A stretch of DNA of 64,000 nt from Naegleria lovaniensis (taxonomy: Eukaryota; Heterolobosea; Eutetramitea; Acrasida; Naegleriidae): NCBI RefSeq assembly GCF_003324165.1, contig NW_025407835.1:372001-436000 (forward strand). Direction: 5' to 3'. The number at the start of each line of letters is the position of its first letter. Within the stretch, counting starts at the first letter, position 1. Below are positions 17,742 to 26,000 of the stretch, in pieces. The position numbers and the translations under genes were made by a program. The notes beneath the pieces were generated by a model, which did no database searches, was not told the DNA's origin, and worked only from the letters and a program-made list of their open reading frames with translations.

Positions 17742-20700
17742 TCAAACTTTTTCAACAAACAACAAACTAGCATAATTGCTTAATGTATGAACCTTGGAAA
17801 ACAAAATTGGACATTCCAAAGAAATACATTTTTCTTCAATCGATGGAAATTTAGAGTTTGGTAATAATCCATTTGTCATATCCAATTCATGGTTGCAATG
17901 TCGACATATTTCAGAAAGCATATTCTTATTCTTTTCCACACTTCTCAATCGAAGCAATAACACCAGTGGGTATTCCTTGCACTTGACGCACATTGGCTCT
18001 TCCGAAGTCTTTGTTCCTTCGTCATGGCTCAATGACTTGCAATCAATGATCGCTCCACAACTCACACAAGGCACACTAATGGGCTTGAAATATCGCTCAA
18101 TAAAATTTTTGGATTTTCTAAATAATTGTTTTCTCCAATCGGCCATCAAATAAACATCACGTTTCGGTAAATTCATATACCAAACATTACAATTCACAAA
18201 ACATAACGAAAATAATCGATCCAAAGAGGGTAACAATTGTCGTGTGATGTAATAATTATAATGAAGACGATATTTTTGACGAGTGTTATGAATTACTACT
18301 TGATGATGGCAGTATGACGTATTACTACTAGTTCCCATACGATCTGCAATATAATACTTCGGATGAATGACCATATCTGATAATTTTGCCTTAGATGGAT
18401 GTAAGGGACTGAACACAACGACATAGGGAACTCGTTCATTAAATCTTGGCTCTGCTCTTGGATCACGTTGCATTTCTCGAATTGCTACTCTTGCAGAAGG
18501 AGGAAGATTCTTCTCAGATTTGTAATATCCAAGTTTGACCTTTTTCCAAAAAATAAAATCTTGTAACGAGCACTTTTCTGAGATGATTCTATAGAATTGT
18601 CTGGATAGATAGGATTTCACAAGAGAAAAATCAAGAGTTTCAAATAGAATTTCTAAACTCTTTTCCATTAAACTTCGTACCATTAAACAATTGTCTCTTC
18701 TTACGGCTTCAATGCCTTTGCAGAAAAGAGTACCTTTGGTTTGTGAAGGATTTTCAAAAGCTAGACCGACATATCTCTTCTTACTGACCAAAAAGCTAGG
18801 ATGAAATATTCGTTCCATTTGTAAAGTGATTGGTTTTGGATTCGAGTTGGTCACAATTCGAACAATTTCTTTGCCAAGTTTGAATGCTTCTTCTCGTGAA
18901 CAGTCAATACACTCGACAAATAGCGAGTCGGTATCTCCATATGCAACACGACACTTTCCTTTGAAGTGTTGATTGACAGTTTCAATTGCATTTTCAAGAG
19001 TTTGTCTTGCAAGTTGCACAATAGCATCTGCTAAATCAGAAAGTGGCATTCTTCCTGAGAAATTTGCTGATGTATAGCCATAGGTGACATTGGCAATAAG
19101 CTTTAAACCTAACTGACGAGCATTAAGAATTCGTTGAGTTTCAGTATCTTCCTTACTCGTTTCCTTCATTGCTTGCTTTACCATGACTCGAGTGTTGAGA
19201 ATTTCTGTACACATTCGTGGAAGAATTCCTTGTCTTACACTTGGTTTTACAAAAAGACATTGATTGGGAGTTATCAGAATATCTTGTTCAATAGATTTTC
19301 CATCGTTTCTGTTTTTTAACAATTTTCGCAATTCACTATTTGGTTCATAACCATCCAATGTTCCAAGCTTACTCTTCTTTTGATCCACAAATGCCATCTT
19401 TCCTAAACATGTACTATAACATAAATTATATGCAATAATAATGGATGGATAAAGAGATTGAAAATCTAGAACAATGACTGGATTCGTATATAATTTGCTT
19501 TGTGGCTCCATGACTAATGGTAAACACTCGATTGCTGCTTGTTCCATCACCTGCTTTCGTGTGGGTGAAAGAGCGACATAATTATACAATCGTGCAAGTC
19601 GAAGCATCATACTTTCTACTCGATATTGAGAGCCTCGGTTAAGGACTGAGAAAAATTCAATACCAAACACTTTCGCTAATTCTCCAGTTCTGTTCAAAAA
19701 GTCCAAATAGTTCAACAACTCGAGTGTGATGCTTGCCTTGGTGTAATAGTATTGAAGAATAATTCGATATTCAAAGCTGTCTTTTCGATGATGGCAACTG
19801 TTTGATAGGTCGCTAAGTGTTTGGTATGAATATTGTGGAATTCGCTTTCCGAGAATGTTAAAGGCAACATTATTTAGCGTGTACATATCCAGTTTCATTT
19901 CTCCATTCATAAGTCGCCAAACATTGATCACCACTCTTCCCTTAATCATCACACCAGATTGTTTGTTTCTTGCGTATTCTTGTGCCTTTTTCAAGATTTT
20001 GTCCTGTCTCTTGTCCTTGTTGGCATTATTGGCTTTGTTTTCACTTTGATAGAAAATTGAACGTGACAAGTCATAACAAATGTTCTTCCCAAGTACAGTG
20101 AATCCCCTCTCGATTAAATATCCAAGACCTTCAGTTTGCATTTCATATCCCAATAAAATGTCAGGATCTTCCTTGCAAATAAAATCAATGAATCCATTCA
20201 ACAGGTCTTGTTCCGTGTTGAATTCAAAGAATCGGTCAAAATTAAGTGGAATACATGTTAACTTGTGCTGTATGATGTCACTATCCTCTAAATCTCGATT
20301 GAGCAATAGGATACTCTCTGTACTGTTTGTAACATCTGCACAATTTTGAGAGCAAATTACAATGGCTTGAACTGGATCATAAATTGGATTTGGTAAAAAA
20401 TCTGCTCTTGTCATGACATGACATTCAATCGACATGACATTAATATTTTGCTTGGAGACGAGCTCCTTCTTATTTGAAGAGTCATCTTTTTCGTGAGCGT
20501 CTAAATTAAAGGCAGCCTTTTTTCGCTGGCTAGTTACAGATAACTCCGATACAAGTGATTGAGGTGCTCTTCTTCGTCTCCGTGACGGTGTGTTAGGTGG
20601 AGTGGTGTTGAGTGAACACAAATTCTTAGGAGGGAGTGAAGAAGCAACATCCAAAATGGGTTCATCAAACTCTGGAGATGGAATTCTGTTTGTAAAACTT

Positions 20701-23700
20701 TCAGAGTCATCACTTGAAGATATCTTTGGGTCTCTATGAAGTTCATTCATAACCTGCTTTAGTGTTGGTGGTCTTGGTGCAAATTCTAGTATCGTTTTGG
20801 AGTGAATGGTACTTGCTTTCAACTCAAATTTTGTAAAATGCTTTTGAAATGCAAAAACATCAAGTTCATCCAAGTGCTTACTAATAGGCATTTCTCCCTT
20901 CACTCTTTTTTTACCAAATATTGAAGAAAATCGAATAATGGAGCTTCTCTTACTTTCCAAATAATCTGCATGATTGCTGAAAAAAGGTCTTCTTTCGAGA
21001 CTCTTGACCATACCTCGATATTCCTTTGCTGATTCATGAAGATCGTCTAGTACCATGTCTAATGAGGGAGGAGAGTGTTTGTAATTCAGCGTGTACAAAG
21101 AAGCCTGGTCATCATTTTCACCATGTGATGTCCCGCTTAACGGTGGTGTACCAATATTGTCATCTCTACCATCTTGTTCGGTATTTTCATATTGTGCGTT
21201 GGGAATAATCAAAAGTGGAGGTGATAAACTGTCTCGAACTTGGACCTCATCCTCTGGTATGAGTTCGCTTTGGTGTTCATGTTGTAATTGTACTGAACTA
21301 GTTCCTAGTATTGGTGAAGATGGTTGGTTGCGGCTTTCTTCAGCAATAATTGCAGCTTCTCCAAACAAATCATTCCCTTCTTGAGGTGGTTCAATAGGAT
21401 TTTGATCTTCACCACCAACACTCATAGGTTGATGTGAAACCTCTGCAAATAGAAATCGTTCAGGTCTGACATCAAGTGCTTGTTGAAATAGAGAAAAAGA
21501 AATTTCCTGAGAAGGAATATTTGAAGACCCTTCGTGAGTAGAAAGTATTGATTTTTCCTGGAATGGAAAAAAGTTATCAAGAAAGAATTGGTCGTGCTCA
21601 TTTTCAATATTCTTCTTTGGTGTTGATGCTGATTCTTCTTGAAATGAAACTTTTCTCTTTTTGCTGGGAAGTAGATTGCTCTTGTTTCCTTCATGAGTAA
21701 AAATGTCCATTGACTTGTTGGAAAGCTTTCTAAAACTATTGTTTTTCACCGAGTATTCAAATCTACAAAAATATGTGTCTTTTGGTTGTTCAACAAATTC
21801 TTCGGGAAGTTTCTCTTCATTCAAGAAGCTATCAACAACAATGTTGGTAGGAAGGTCCTTAAAGTACTTATCCACAAGAAGTACGTTGCATTTTCCAATG
21901 ACTGTATCAATTAAATTAGTGTCGCAATGAGAAATCAAAAACACTTCATTCTCTCCATTCCACTCTCTTCTTCCACCTTTTGTTTCTTGAGGTCTATAAA
22001 ACCACCTCACTGTAACAGTTTTAGATTGGCTATTTTTGTCAACAACACATGCAATATATGGCTTACAATTTTTTGGAGCTCTCAAATAAACAAACTCTCC
22101 TATGGATACATCTTCAATGGTGAATTTGGTATTCTTGTCTTTTTTTCTTGTAGTCTTGTCAGAATAGCCATCATATTGAGGTATAAGTTCGTACATGTCA
22201 CCGTCGCTGCTGTCAGATGAATAGGTTTCTTCAGCATCAGATAAATGGTCGTCATCGACCTCAAGAACATGAATTGACTCATCCATGTCAATGACCTCCT
22301 TCATGGAGTTTATAATCTCCTGCTCCTCGTTTTCTGTGATATCTTCCATCTCTTCATCTTCGTCATTTTGATCCTCAAACCCCAGGTTGTTATATTCATC
22401 CTCCTTCAGCTCAAAATCTTTTTCTCGCATCCAATTTAAGATGCTTTCGAGCGCTTCATCGCTTTGGGTTAATTGAATGTTGTAACTGCTGCCATTCTGG
22501 TTGTGACTTGCCTCATAAGAACTTCCTCGTTCTTTAATTTCTTCATACGTGAGGAAAGCACTTGGGTACTTGGATAACAAGTTATTCAGAGCTTCTTGAG
22601 ATTGCTTAATCGTGGGTGTGTCATCTCGCAATCCGTTTGGTACTTGGCTGGCAAATATGATCTCATCTTCTTCTTCGTTTTTTTGGACCTTTGATATAAT
22701 ATCTACCAAATTATCGTACATGATATTTTCAAGCTCGTTTTTCACTGTTGGCTCTCTCTCAAATGGTGAAAAAGGGATCGGTGGCTGTGAAATTTCCATA
22801 TTGATGGATCGTCTCCTCTTTCTCTCTTCTTCCCAAATAATGTTCAGAGATTGAAGAAGCTTTCTGTCTTTTCCAAACTGATTGTCTTTTTCTTTTTCAA
22901 GAGAAAGTTGAACATTAATAATCTCTTGTCTATTCAAAATATCCCTGGAGAAAATGTCCATTTCAATCTCACATTTAGATAGCCTCTTGACATTCTCTGG
23001 TAAAATTGTTCCATAATTTGTAGCGTTTTGGCTGCATATCTTGTCAGTACTTTCGCAATTCTCAGCCGTGTGAAACGGTAACCTGAAAAACAGTTTTTCA
23101 ACATGCAAGTCTCCCATTCCATACACGTTGTAATCCATCATGAACTGTAAAGAAAAAGGAATGTGGGCCTCATACACAGAAAATTTATGACCCATCACAC
23201 TACTATTTCCGAACATGGCTGCCATTTTACCAACGTGACTAGGATTGTACACATAGACTTTTAAGAATAATTGAGGATTAAACCAGTATCCGTAGAATGG
23301 TGTACCTGTCACAACAACAATATCATGAATAAATTGTCTTTGGTTTTTGAAAACAGATTGATCTTGTTTGAAATTTTGTTGCATGTTGTTCGGAAGTGGT
23401 GTTCCATAGAGTGATCTATGAAAGGTTTGTTCAATAGTATTTCCTAAAACATGAATGAAATCGTAAACCTTTTTCATATTCAAGTTTAGTAAATGATCAG
23501 TACTCTTTGAATTTTTCATCGTTTCACCTTCCTCGAGGAACAATTCGTATGGAAATGACAACATAAAATACGGATACAATTGATGAATGTGCAAACAAGC
23601 TTTTTGTTTTGTTTCCTGTATTGTTCCATAGATATGCATAATAGGAACCAAATCAATATTTCTTCCTCCAAAGAATGAGCACTTTCTATCATCAAACAAA

Positions 23701-23750
23701 GCCTGAGGCAAACAGAGAGAGTACTCCAAGGAAAGTACTTGAAGACGCAT
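17742..23750 (-). CDS. REV3: DNA polymerase zeta catalytic subunit REV3 with BAH domain
   Basis: Family-B polymerase for error-prone translesion synthesis; 2002 residues, no intron. The N-terminal domain begins MRLQVLSLEYS and includes ACLHIHQLYPYF, matching human REV3 KTCLHLHGIFPYL. A BAH domain occupies about 540-675 (see its own entry). A long charged, Ser-rich linker follows, then the exonuclease-like domain, where the DxE motif reads SIE and is presumably inactive as in REV3. Polymerase motif A is DFQSLYPSIII and motif C is YGDTDSLFVE. The C-terminus carries CysA (CVSCGAIIDC and CVKC) and CysB (CRHC and CISLEC), the latter being the Fe-S ligand site that binds accessory subunits. The frame extends upstream to 24014, but the extension lacks REV3 similarity and overlaps SDHA by 42 bp, so the Met at 23750 was chosen. 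Confidence 0.93.
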   Translation of the reverse strand: MRLQVLSLEYSLCLPQALFDDRKCSFFGGRNIDLVPIMHIYGTIQETKQKACLHIHQLYPYFMLSFPYELFLEEGETMKNSKSTDHLLNLNMKKVYDFIHVLGNTIEQTFHRSLYGTPLPNNMQQNFKQDQSVFKNQRQFIHDIVVVTGTPFYGYWFNPQLFLKVYVYNPSHVGKMAAMFGNSSVMGHKFSVYEAHIPFSLQFMMDYNVYGMGDLHVEKLFFRLPFHTAENCESTDKICSQNATNYGTILPENVKRLSKCEIEMDIFSRDILNRQEIINVQLSLEKEKDNQFGKDRKLLQSLNIIWEEERKRRRSINMEISQPPIPFSPFEREPTVKNELENIMYDNLVDIISKVQKNEEEDEIIFASQVPNGLRDDTPTIKQSQEALNNLLSKYPSAFLTYEEIKERGSSYEASHNQNGSSYNIQLTQSDEALESILNWMREKDFELKEDEYNNLGFEDQNDEDEEMEDITENEEQEIINSMKEVIDMDESIHVLEVDDDHLSDAEETYSSDSSDGDMYELIPQYDGYSDKTTRKKDKNTKFTIEDVSIGEFVYLRAPKNCKPYIACVVDKNSQSKTVTVRWFYRPQETKGGRREWNGENEVFLISHCDTNLIDTVIGKCNVLLVDKYFKDLPTNIVVDSFLNEEKLPEEFVEQPKDTYFCRFEYSVKNNSFRKLSNKSMDIFTHEGNKSNLLPSKKRKVSFQEESASTPKKNIENEHDQFFLDNFFPFQEKSILSTHEGSSNIPSQEISFSLFQQALDVRPERFLFAEVSHQPMSVGGEDQNPIEPPQEGNDLFGEAAIIAEESRNQPSSPILGTSSVQLQHEHQSELIPEDEVQVRDSLSPPLLIIPNAQYENTEQDGRDDNIGTPPLSGTSHGENDDQASLYTLNYKHSPPSLDMVLDDLHESAKEYRGMVKSLERRPFFSNHADYLESKRSSIIRFSSIFGKKRVKGEMPISKHLDELDVFAFQKHFTKFELKASTIHSKTILEFAPRPPTLKQVMNELHRDPKISSSDDSESFTNRIPSPEFDEPILDVASSLPPKNLCSLNTTPPNTPSRRRRRAPQSLVSELSVTSQRKKAAFNLDAHEKDDSSNKKELVSKQNINVMSIECHVMTRADFLPNPIYDPVQAIVICSQNCADVTNSTESILLLNRDLEDSDIIQHKLTCIPLNFDRFFEFNTEQDLLNGFIDFICKEDPDILLGYEMQTEGLGYLIERGFTVLGKNICYDLSRSIFYQSENKANNANKDKRQDKILKKAQEYARNKQSGVMIKGRVVINVWRLMNGEMKLDMYTLNNVAFNILGKRIPQYSYQTLSDLSNSCHHRKDSFEYRIILQYYYTKASITLELLNYLDFLNRTGELAKVFGIEFFSVLNRGSQYRVESMMLRLARLYNYVALSPTRKQVMEQAAIECLPLVMEPQSKLYTNPVIVLDFQSLYPSIIIAYNLCYSTCLGKMAFVDQKKSKLGTLDGYEPNSELRKLLKNRNDGKSIEQDILITPNQCLFVKPSVRQGILPRMCTEILNTRVMVKQAMKETSKEDTETQRILNARQLGLKLIANVTYGYTSANFSGRMPLSDLADAIVQLARQTLENAIETVNQHFKGKCRVAYGDTDSLFVECIDCSREEAFKLGKEIVRIVTNSNPKPITLQMERIFHPSFLVSKKRYVGLAFENPSQTKGTLFCKGIEAVRRDNCLMVRSLMEKSLEILFETLDFSLVKSYLSRQFYRIISEKCSLQDFIFWKKVKLGYYKSEKNLPPSARVAIREMQRDPRAEPRFNERVPYVVVFSPLHPSKAKLSDMVIHPKYYIADRMGTSSNTSYCHHQVVIHNTRQKYRLHYNYYITRQLLPSLDRLFSLCFVNCNVWYMNLPKRDVYLMADWRKQLFRKSKNFIERYFKPISVPCVSCGAIIDCKSLSHDEGTKTSEEPMCVKCKEYPLVLLLRLRSVEKNKNMLSEICRHCNHELDMTNGLLPNSKFPSIEEKCISLECPILFSKVHTLSNYASLLFVEKV
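21727..22132 (-). other. BAH domain inserted in REV3
   Basis: Segment of REV3, about residues 540-675. Read in order: SIGEFVYLRAP, PYIACVVDKNSQ, TVTVRWFYRPQETKGGR, NEVFLISHCDTN, TVIGKCNVLLVDKYF, DTYFCRFEYSVKNNSFRKL. This reproduces the whole bromo-adjacent-homology consensus, including the WFYRPxET core, the NEVFLS-H-D element and the IxGKCxV strand. BAH domains mediate binding to histones or other chromatin proteins. It lies in frame in an uninterrupted exon between the REV3 N-terminal domain and the polymerase. Confidence 0.85.
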
Positions 23751-23972
23751 CTTGTAACATTTTTTTGGGTTGATCTTCGACAAAGCATTGGAATTAAAAA
23801 CAAATAATCTTTTCCAAATTATCTTTAAATGTTTTGAAATTATCATAGAGCAATTTTGATGATGTTGTTGTTGGTATCTCATGGAAACTCTCCGATGATG
23901 ATGAATTTGAGTGCTTGAACAGCGTTCATCCAACACGAATGAAAATTGCATTAAAAAAATTAAACGCAAAAA
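23751..23972. promoter_or_regulatory. Divergent REV3 / SDHA intergenic region
   Basis: 222 bp between the chosen REV3 start (-) and the SDHA start (+). REV3 in-frame upstream codons run through it without a stop, so part may encode an extended REV3 N-terminus if an earlier Met is used (for example that at 23846). Otherwise it is the shared promoter and leader. Confidence 0.4.
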
Positions 23973-26000
23973 ATGATGAAAAACTGCCGAAAGCTCCAAC
24001 GTGTGGCTAACCAAGTCAAGAAGAGCGTTCTCTCATCATCATCTCCTTCGACTAAAAGTACTCCTTCTCTTCTCACTACAACAACAACAACAACTAACAA
24101 TCTCCAAAATAGATGTTTCTCATCAAATATTAAAAATTTGGTGGTTTTAGGAAATAGCGCTGTTAGAGAAGGAACTATGAACGAAAAGGGTCCACAACTC
24201 TCTCAAGTATATCCAGTGATTGACCATACGTATGATGCCGTCATTGTTGGTGCTGGTGGTGCTGGTCTTGTGTGTGCAGCCAACTTGGCTAAAGCCGGAT
24301 ACAAGGTGGCCTGTATTTCCAAGCTTTTCCCAACAAGATCCCACACAGTCGCTGCCCAAGGAGGTATCAATGCTGCTCTTGGTAATATGACCGAGGACCA
24401 CTGGACTTATCATGCCTACGATACAGTCAAGGGAAGTGATTGGCTTGGTGATCAAGATGCCATTCACTATATGTGTAAGGAAGCTCCACAAGCTGTTATT
24501 GAATTGGAACATATGGGTTTACCATTCTCTCGTACACCAGAAGGAAAGATTTATCAAAGAGCTTTCGGTGGTCAAAGTATTAAATTCGGTAAGGGAGGAC
24601 AAGCTAAACGTTGTTGTGCTGCTGCTGACAGAACCGGACACGCTTTGTTGCACACCAACTATGGTATGGCATTGAAATATGATGTCCAATTCTTCATTGA
24701 ATACTTTGCATTGGATTTGTTGATGGAGGGTGATGAATGTAGAGGAGTGATGACCTATAACCTTGAGGATTCAAGTTTGCATCGTTTCCGTGCTCACTAC
24801 ACTGTGCTAGCAACCGGAGGATATGGTAGAGCATATTCATCATGTACAAGCGCTCACACTTGCACTGGTGATGGTACAGCAATGGCTTCAAGAGCTGGCT
24901 TACCAAATCAAGATTTAGAATTTGTTCAATTCCACCCTACTGGTATTTATGGTGCAGGTTGTCTCATTACTGAAGGTGCTCGTGGTGAAGGTGGTTTCTT
25001 GAGAAATGCTGAAGGTGAACGTTTCATGGAAAGATATGCCCCAAGCGTAAAAGATTTGGCTTCAAGAGACGTTGTCAGTAGAGCCATGACAATGGAAATT
25101 TTAGAAGGAAGAGGTTGCGGACCAAAGAAAGATCATATTCACTTGCACTTGGATCACTTGCCAGCAGAATTGCTCCATGAAAGATTGCCAGGTATTACTG
25201 AGACTGCTAAAATCTTTGCAGGTGTTGACTTAACCAAGGAACCAATTCCTGTTGTTCCAACAGTTCACTACAATATGGGTGGTGTTCCTACTCTGTATAC
25301 AGGTCAAGTAGTTTACAAGAAGAGTGAAGATCAACCCGATTACCCAGTTAAGGGATTGTTAGCAGCTGGTGAAGTTGCATGTGCTTCTGTACACGGTGCT
25401 AATCGTTTGGGAGCTAACTCACTTTTGGATCTTGTCGTTTTCGGACGTGCTTGTGCTTTATATGTCATGGAAAATTTACCAAAGGATACCAAGCATAAGC
25501 CTCTTCCTTCAGATGCTGGACTCAAATCAATCATGAATTTGGATAGAATTTTCAATAACCCTAATGGTAGCATTAAGTGTCACGAATTAAGAAAGGAAAT
25601 GCAAAGCGTCATGCAAAATTATGCTGCTGTTTATCGTAAGCAAGATACTTTAGACATGGGTGTCAAGTTGATTAAGGAAGCATACTCAAAACTTCCATAT
25701 GTTAAATTGGGAGACAAATCACCAGTTTACAACGTTAACCTTTATGAAATTCTTGAATTGCAAAATCTCTTGGCTAACGCAGTGCAAACAATGATTGCTG
25801 CTGAAAACAGAAAAGAATCTAGAGGTGCTCACGCTCGTGATGATTATCCAGAAAGAGATGACGTAAATTGGATGAAACACACGCTTACAACTATGGACAC
25901 TGAAACTGGTGAAGTGAAGATTGACTATAGACCAGTCCATAACTATACTTTGGATGAAAAGGAATGGCAATACATTCCTCCATTTAAGAGAGTGTATTAA
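23973..26000 (+). CDS. SDHA: Succinate dehydrogenase flavoprotein subunit, mitochondrial
   Basis: 675 residues in one exon. Oxidises succinate to fumarate in respiratory complex II and the citric-acid cycle, passing electrons to covalently bound FAD. The N-terminal 50 residues are Lys/Arg/Ser/Thr-rich and lack acidic residues ([18 protein letters not shown]), a mitochondrial presequence. The FAD dinucleotide site is [20 protein letters not shown] near 88, and the flavin-attachment His is in [16 protein letters not shown]. Substrate-site elements are [23 protein letters not shown] and [13 protein letters not shown]. The C-terminus ends at the usual [17 protein letters not shown]. Length is close to human SDHA (664). 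Met codons at 23973 and 23976 are both possible starts. Confidence 0.97.

Follow-up and report, generated by a model that had tools for sequence, protein, structure and literature searches.

A BAH domain of the SHL/EBS type, with conserved methyl-lysine reader residues, inside the REV3 polymerase of Naegleria lovaniensis

Repair proteins with built-in histone readers are already known, as are BAH domains that read H3K27me3. The class of BAH domains that read this mark, with a Tyr-Trp-Tyr aromatic cage, takes in SHL, EBS, AIPP3, BAHCC1 and BAHD1. H3K27me3-reading BAH domains have been described from plants, mammals and fungi (PMC13068663). In plants, the BAH-PHD proteins SHL and EBS act as repressors of flowering genes; in SHL, nine residues lie at the H3K27me3 peptide (Met31, Arg32, Tyr41, Trp63, Tyr65, His88, Asp90, Gln92 and Asp95), and alanine mutants of Y41, W63, Y65, H88 and D90 abolish binding (PMC6013494). 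Among repair proteins, MSH6 carries a built-in PWWP domain in animals and a built-in Tudor domain in land plants, by which it is steered to marked chromatin (PMC12292046, PMC13305816). Translesion synthesis is also tied to repressive marks: chicken cells without REV1 lose such marks near G-quadruplexes (PMC3145961), and in the mouse REV7 (Mad2l2) influences H3K9me2 and H3K27me3 by way of G9a/GLP and Ezh2 (PMC3757036), although these links run by routes other than a built-in reader. A literature search at the level of titles and abstracts, in a collection with few subscription papers and no bioRxiv preprints, returned no report of a BAH domain in REV3.

The window, a stretch of 64,000 nucleotides from Naegleria lovaniensis, contains a single open frame on the reverse strand that encodes 2,096 amino acids from stop to stop (Table 1). 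Residue numbers refer to this frame unless they are counted from the probable start. We chose Met95 (window position 23750) as that start because the REV3_N match begins at residue 97, and the protein would then be 2,002 amino acids long. Running hmmscan on the whole protein gave, in order, REV3_N, POL3_N, BAH, the exonuclease-fold domain, the polymerase domain and the C4 zinc finger. A seventh family in the output, MCPVI, was rejected as a chance match (0.036).

Table 1. Features of the REV3 gene, with positions in the window and residue numbers of the stop-to-stop frame.
Feature	Window position	Strand	Basis and remarks
REV3 (DNA polymerase zeta catalytic subunit)	17742..24032	-	open frame; probable start Met at window 23750
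REV3_N (PF24065), residues 97-150	23583..23744	-	1.2e-06, 29.1 bits, just below cut-off 29.9
POL3_N (PF24055), residues 217-267	23232..23384	-	39.7 bits, cut-off 24.1; region aligns with solved polymerase zeta
Acidic linker preceding BAH, residues 421-627	22152..22772	-	27.5% Asp/Glu
BAH domain (PF01426), residues 641-770	21723..22112	-	Pfam profile match
Putative cage residue Tyr659 (PtSHL Tyr41)	22056..22058	-	alignment
Putative cage residue Trp677 (PtSHL Trp63)	22002..22004	-	alignment
Putative cage residue Tyr679 (PtSHL Tyr65)	21996..21998	-	alignment
His702 (PtSHL His88; in SHL contacts H3S28 and H3P30)	21927..21929	-	alignment
Asp704 (PtSHL Asp90; in SHL contacts H3S28)	21921..21923	-	alignment
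Family B exonuclease-fold domain (PF03104), residues 1166-1389	19866..20537	-	Pfam; no FDxE
Family B polymerase domain (PF00136), residues 1460-1942	18207..19655	-	Pfam; contains DFQSLYPSI and YGDTDS
C-terminal cysteine region (PF14260), residues 1989-2080	17793..18068	-	2.7e-06, 28.0 bits, just below cut-off 28.9

The identification of the protein as REV3, made in a preliminary description of this DNA, held up well. Compared with solved structures, it matched polymerase zeta best (3e-184 and 3.7e-184), as against 2.1e-71 for the top polymerase delta. The N-terminal half on its own also aligned with solved polymerase zeta (4.8e-18, over residues 231-320), and the alignment of the core starts at residue 1023. 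By motif scan, both signature motifs of the polymerase domain are intact, and no FDxE motif occurs anywhere in the protein; intact polymerase motifs together with a degenerate exonuclease are what is expected of REV3. The C-terminal region contains a CVSC...CVKC pattern; the match there to the C4 zinc finger of polymerase delta (PF14260) falls just short of its cut-off. Comparison of the whole protein with the genome recovered a single full-length copy, together with two fragments of a different polymerase, located on another contig, that we read from its sequence as polymerase delta. A search for close relatives of the whole protein in prokaryote genomes and IMG/VR, collections that are non-eukaryotic, returned none. 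We also observed a PIP-box-like sequence, QFFLDNFF (residues 815-822, window 21567-21590), within the linker downstream of the BAH domain, and that REV3 lies head to head with a frame at 23964-26000, which resembles a succinate dehydrogenase flavoprotein gene, with about 220 bases between the likely starts (window 23750-23973).

The same description had proposed that a complete BAH pattern lies in frame between the N-terminal domain and the polymerase core. Indeed, all five of the peptides that it quoted fall within the one open frame, and the domain sits between the two parts that align with polymerase zeta. The match to the Pfam profile PF01426 has an E-value of 2.5e-16; its score of 60.1 bits exceeds the curated cut-off (30.8), and it spans positions 2-120 of the 121 in the profile. 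The domain is where it had been placed (21727..22132), with ends that differ from ours by 4 and 20 bases; the residues originally given, 540-675, come near to the 547-676 obtained by counting from the probable start. A six-frame search of the genome returned the same stretch as its top BAH match (67.3 bits), and the genome holds at least three such matches, a lower bound since this search scores exons singly. No solved polymerase zeta chain appears among the PDB matches of the BAH stretch. A single-protein search for close relatives of the domain in IMG/VR and phages, collections without eukaryotes, found none. Fold prediction gave unusable models, with a mean pLDDT of 34.3 for the stretch alone and 36.3 when two BAH exons from the genome were added in an alignment. 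At the level of sequence, the presence of a BAH domain inside REV3 is confirmed.

The subtype of the domain is apparent from its relatives of known structure. Against the PDB, the stretch matched 27 sequences at E-values up to 1, a few of them plainly non-BAH proteins. The top three were SHL (6.2e-16) and EBS (1.2e-13 and 2.2e-13), followed by polybromo, BAHCC1, 7cce, which is AIPP3 (PMC13068663), TNRC18, two other BAH chains and Rsc1. Far weaker matches were obtained with ORC1 (0.0062 and 0.07) and DNA methyltransferases (0.0083, 0.011 and 0.28-0.29). In the alignment, the counterparts of the nine SHL contact residues are Leu650, Arg651, Tyr659, Trp677, Tyr679, His702, Asp704, Asn706 and Asp709, such that seven of nine are identical and the remaining two are conservative replacements (Met to Leu and Gln to Asn); EBS itself keeps eight of the nine. 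All five residues essential for binding by SHL are kept. This is not so in the controls: of the five, two are present in a DNMT-like gene of the same genome (L003), one in a BRCT-BAH gene (L002) and two in polybromo BAH1, the last from an alignment read by eye. Therefore, membership of the BAH family is not in itself sufficient to keep them. Counting against the explanation that we favour below, REV3 and SHL are identical at 36 of 84 aligned residues, with less likeness in the flanks of the reader residues. Because Pro30 is lacking from the H3 of the host, we describe the domain as SHL/EBS-like and stop short of classing it among the H3K27me3 readers. Taken as statements about sequence, the presence and completeness of the domain, its SHL/EBS subtype and its reader residues are shown; that it acts as a methyl-lysine reader is, on the strength of those residues, quite probable, and that it reads K27me3 in particular falls a little short of even odds. 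Of the two control genes, L002 (G000:C39:262782-263240) joins a BRCT match at its N-terminus to a BAH domain within a single frame, with 764 amino acids within the locus and an open 5' end, and L003 (G000:C3:448123-448356) has a BAH exon followed by a C-5 cytosine methylase exon (PF00145, 2e-29).

The host histone itself is unusual. All three full-length canonical H3 copies (L023, G000:C35:375729-376112; L024, C29:199002-199385; L025, C6:236499-236882) read KAARKSAKQPSTGG, that is ARKS-AKQP with a lysine at position 30, and a partial H3 exon (L026) reads KTSAKQP, likewise without a proline at that position. K27 and S28 are kept, and two extra residues lie between K27 and the K36 region (ARKSAKQPSTGGLKKPH); the usual H3 tail has ARKSAPATGGVKKPH in the K27-K36 region. 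Of the 22 histone matches, 14 were inspected in translation, and scanning the retrieved loci for the motif returned no further H3 tails. Naegleria H3 is mentioned in an earlier paper, in passages that name neither Lys30 nor the extra residues (PMC2939574). In SHL, His88 stacks on Pro30 of H3 and K27 is thereby told from K9 (PMC6013494). Since the host H3 has no Pro30, this stacking cannot form as described for SHL. Either Lys30 is tolerated, or a methylated ARKS is read without discrimination between K27 and K9, or the target is K9me3, or it is not a histone at all. The chromatin-reader role put forward in the preliminary description, which specified no particular mark, stands in part: the relatives and contact residues of the domain point to a putative methyl-lysine reader of the H3K27me3 type, while the H3 of the host lacks the Pro30 of such a target. 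Within our sequence data, Lys30 is the one result that does not fit a plain H3K27me3-reader picture.

Possible writers of the relevant marks are present. Among 12 SET-domain matches in the genome (PF00856) was an E(z)-like protein (G000:C22:541725-542069) whose best PDB match is EZH1 (1e-20), with EZH2 also matched. Two of the four SET proteins that were scanned with Pfam contain a Pre-SET domain, one at 53 bits, above the cut-off of 29.1, and the other below it at 23.6 bits; Pre-SET is typical of H3K9 methyltransferases. Profiles for CXC and the VEFS-box gave no match in the genome and were also silent in 14 prokaryotic controls, so that this is no evidence of absence; the Tet_JBP profile was likewise silent in both genome and controls. 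In Naegleria gruberi, E(z) has been reported, with Su(z)12 not found in Discoba (PMC9018016), and H3K27me3 and H3K9me3 occur at silent regions with cytosine methylation (PMC12344493). As a measure of kinship within the genus, an enolase piece of the 30.7 Mb genome studied here differs at two of 284 residues from PDB chain 7ugh_A, the Naegleria fowleri enzyme. One SET-domain gene was seen on three contigs (L013, L014 and L021, on G000 C12, C92 and C83), as two copies of 539 amino acids and a third cut by a contig end, with similar translations; this reflects either assembly redundancy or recent duplication.

The usual partners of REV3 were harder to find. A search for HORMA domains (PF02301, at E-values up to 0.001 and up to 10) returned two genes (G000:C41:344366-345025 and C14:454835-455362), which we take to resemble HOP1 and MAD2, and neither was recognisable as REV7. 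The REV1_C profile gave no match in the genome and was equally silent in controls. Within REV3, the only candidate REV7-binding motif is an imperfect PxxxPS at residue 1145. The results for REV7 and REV1 both count against the explanation that we favour, although the REV7 gene may be too diverged, or too split by introns, for a profile search.

That explanation, to which we assign a probability of roughly 0.6, is that the BAH domain keeps polymerase zeta, probably within silenced chromatin, on H3 tails that carry methylation at an ARKS motif. By analogy with the aligned contacts, Tyr659, Trp677 and Tyr679 would form an aromatic cage around the methylated lysine, and His702 and Asp704 would grip the serine that follows it in the ARKS of the H3 tail. 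Binding would keep polymerase zeta on the nucleosomes of silenced chromatin, such that lesion bypass and gap filling would be preferred, or would last longer, in regions with H3K27me3 or H3K9me3. The acidic linker before the BAH domain and the linker after it, which is of low complexity and rich in disorder-promoting residues, could allow the reader to reach a nucleosome beside a stalled primer end. The effect may be either to protect silent chromatin from replication failure or to raise its mutation rate, and sequence cannot separate the two. We consider it unlikely that the arrangement serves a mark-directed mutagenesis, in which error-prone synthesis is concentrated on silenced transposons and virus-derived genes in H3K27me3 or H3K9me3 chromatin and speeds their decay; if true, this would be a polymerase-based counterpart of mutational genome defence. 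On that unlikely reading, the reader pocket may have co-evolved with the altered H3 tail of these amoebae, with its Lys30 and two extra residues.

Different readings of the domain have to be weighed against this one. The BAH stretch might be an artefact of annotation: it could be intronic, belong to a separate gene or result from mis-assembly. Splice-like sites are indeed present; when a few fixed patterns were scanned for, donors came up at residues 656 and 675, and a site resembling an acceptor at 839. However, one open frame runs through all the REV3 domains, REV3 is a single locus on a contig of 718 kb, and a BAH match over 119 positions is not expected to persist in a stretch that is spliced out. 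Codon usage is also at the mean of the gene: when scored against REV3's own N-terminal and polymerase parts, the BAH stretch has 0.158 per codon compared with a sliding mean of 0.143 (SD 0.071), and the linkers score -0.02 before and 0.138 after it. With a frame that is open throughout and a complete domain, splicing-out is very unlikely, and we regard an artefact of any kind as highly improbable. Only a little more credible is a vestigial domain, gained by fusion and since deprived of its function, given the near-complete profile match and the intact key residues.

The remaining alternatives concern what the domain binds. It could be a general module for binding nucleosomes or proteins, recruiting or stabilising polymerase zeta whatever the mark and without any reading of methyl-lysine. 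Binding to unmethylated histones, to the nucleosome core or to other proteins is known for some BAH domains (PMC13068663), and the lack of Pro30 in the host H3 would be in keeping with this. We nevertheless consider it unlikely, since the five reader residues are kept in REV3 and not in the other two BAH domains detected in the genome, and the nearest solved relatives are methyl readers. A stronger contender, possible though still the lesser prospect, is that the target of the domain is H3K9me3, or some other methylated ARKS site, and not H3K27me3; as a sub-case of the favoured explanation, it shares part of its odds. The intact ARKS around K9 could provide a serine contact through Ser10, the K27-specific Pro30 is missing from the host H3, and TNRC18 provides a precedent for an H3K9me3-reading BAH domain (PMC13068663). 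Against it, SHL does not accept Gly12, the residue at n+3 of K9 (PMC6013494), and His702 and Asp704 match the K27 type.

If binding bears out, error-prone DNA synthesis would be coupled directly to a chromatin mark through the BAH domain in REV3. By having a reader of its own, probably for a repressive mark, a translesion polymerase would physically and directly connect that mark with mutagenic synthesis, and the finding is also relevant to the known relation of translesion synthesis to repressive marks. Mutation rate differs between chromatin states: relative to euchromatin, Neurospora shows an increase of about tenfold in H3K9me3 domains and of 1.4-fold in those with H3K27me3 (PMC10234303).

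Amongst known systems, the closest in sequence are the plant H3K27me3 readers SHL and EBS, the nearest solved BAH domains, whose cage and His/Asp contacts are kept in REV3. Unlike these BAH-PHD proteins, REV3 has its BAH domain inside a DNA polymerase and contains no PHD finger by Pfam. In its N-terminal domain, core and C-terminal region the protein aligns with solved polymerase zeta (6v8p and 7lxd, which we take to be yeast Rev3), whereas the BAH stretch is unmatched there, the alignments stopping near residue 320 and resuming at 1023. Like ORC1 and DNMT/CMT, it places a BAH domain within a replication or DNA-modifying protein (PMC6013494), although the BAH domains of ORC1 and the DNMTs match that of REV3 much more weakly in sequence than do those of SHL and EBS. 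Finally, REV3 resembles MSH6 as a DNA-repair protein with a built-in, here putative, histone reader. In MSH6, the readers recognise marks that label active genes, where they lower mutation (PMC12292046, PMC13305816); in contrast, if an error-prone polymerase carries a reader for a repressive mark, that reader would work elsewhere in the genome, perhaps in the opposite direction.
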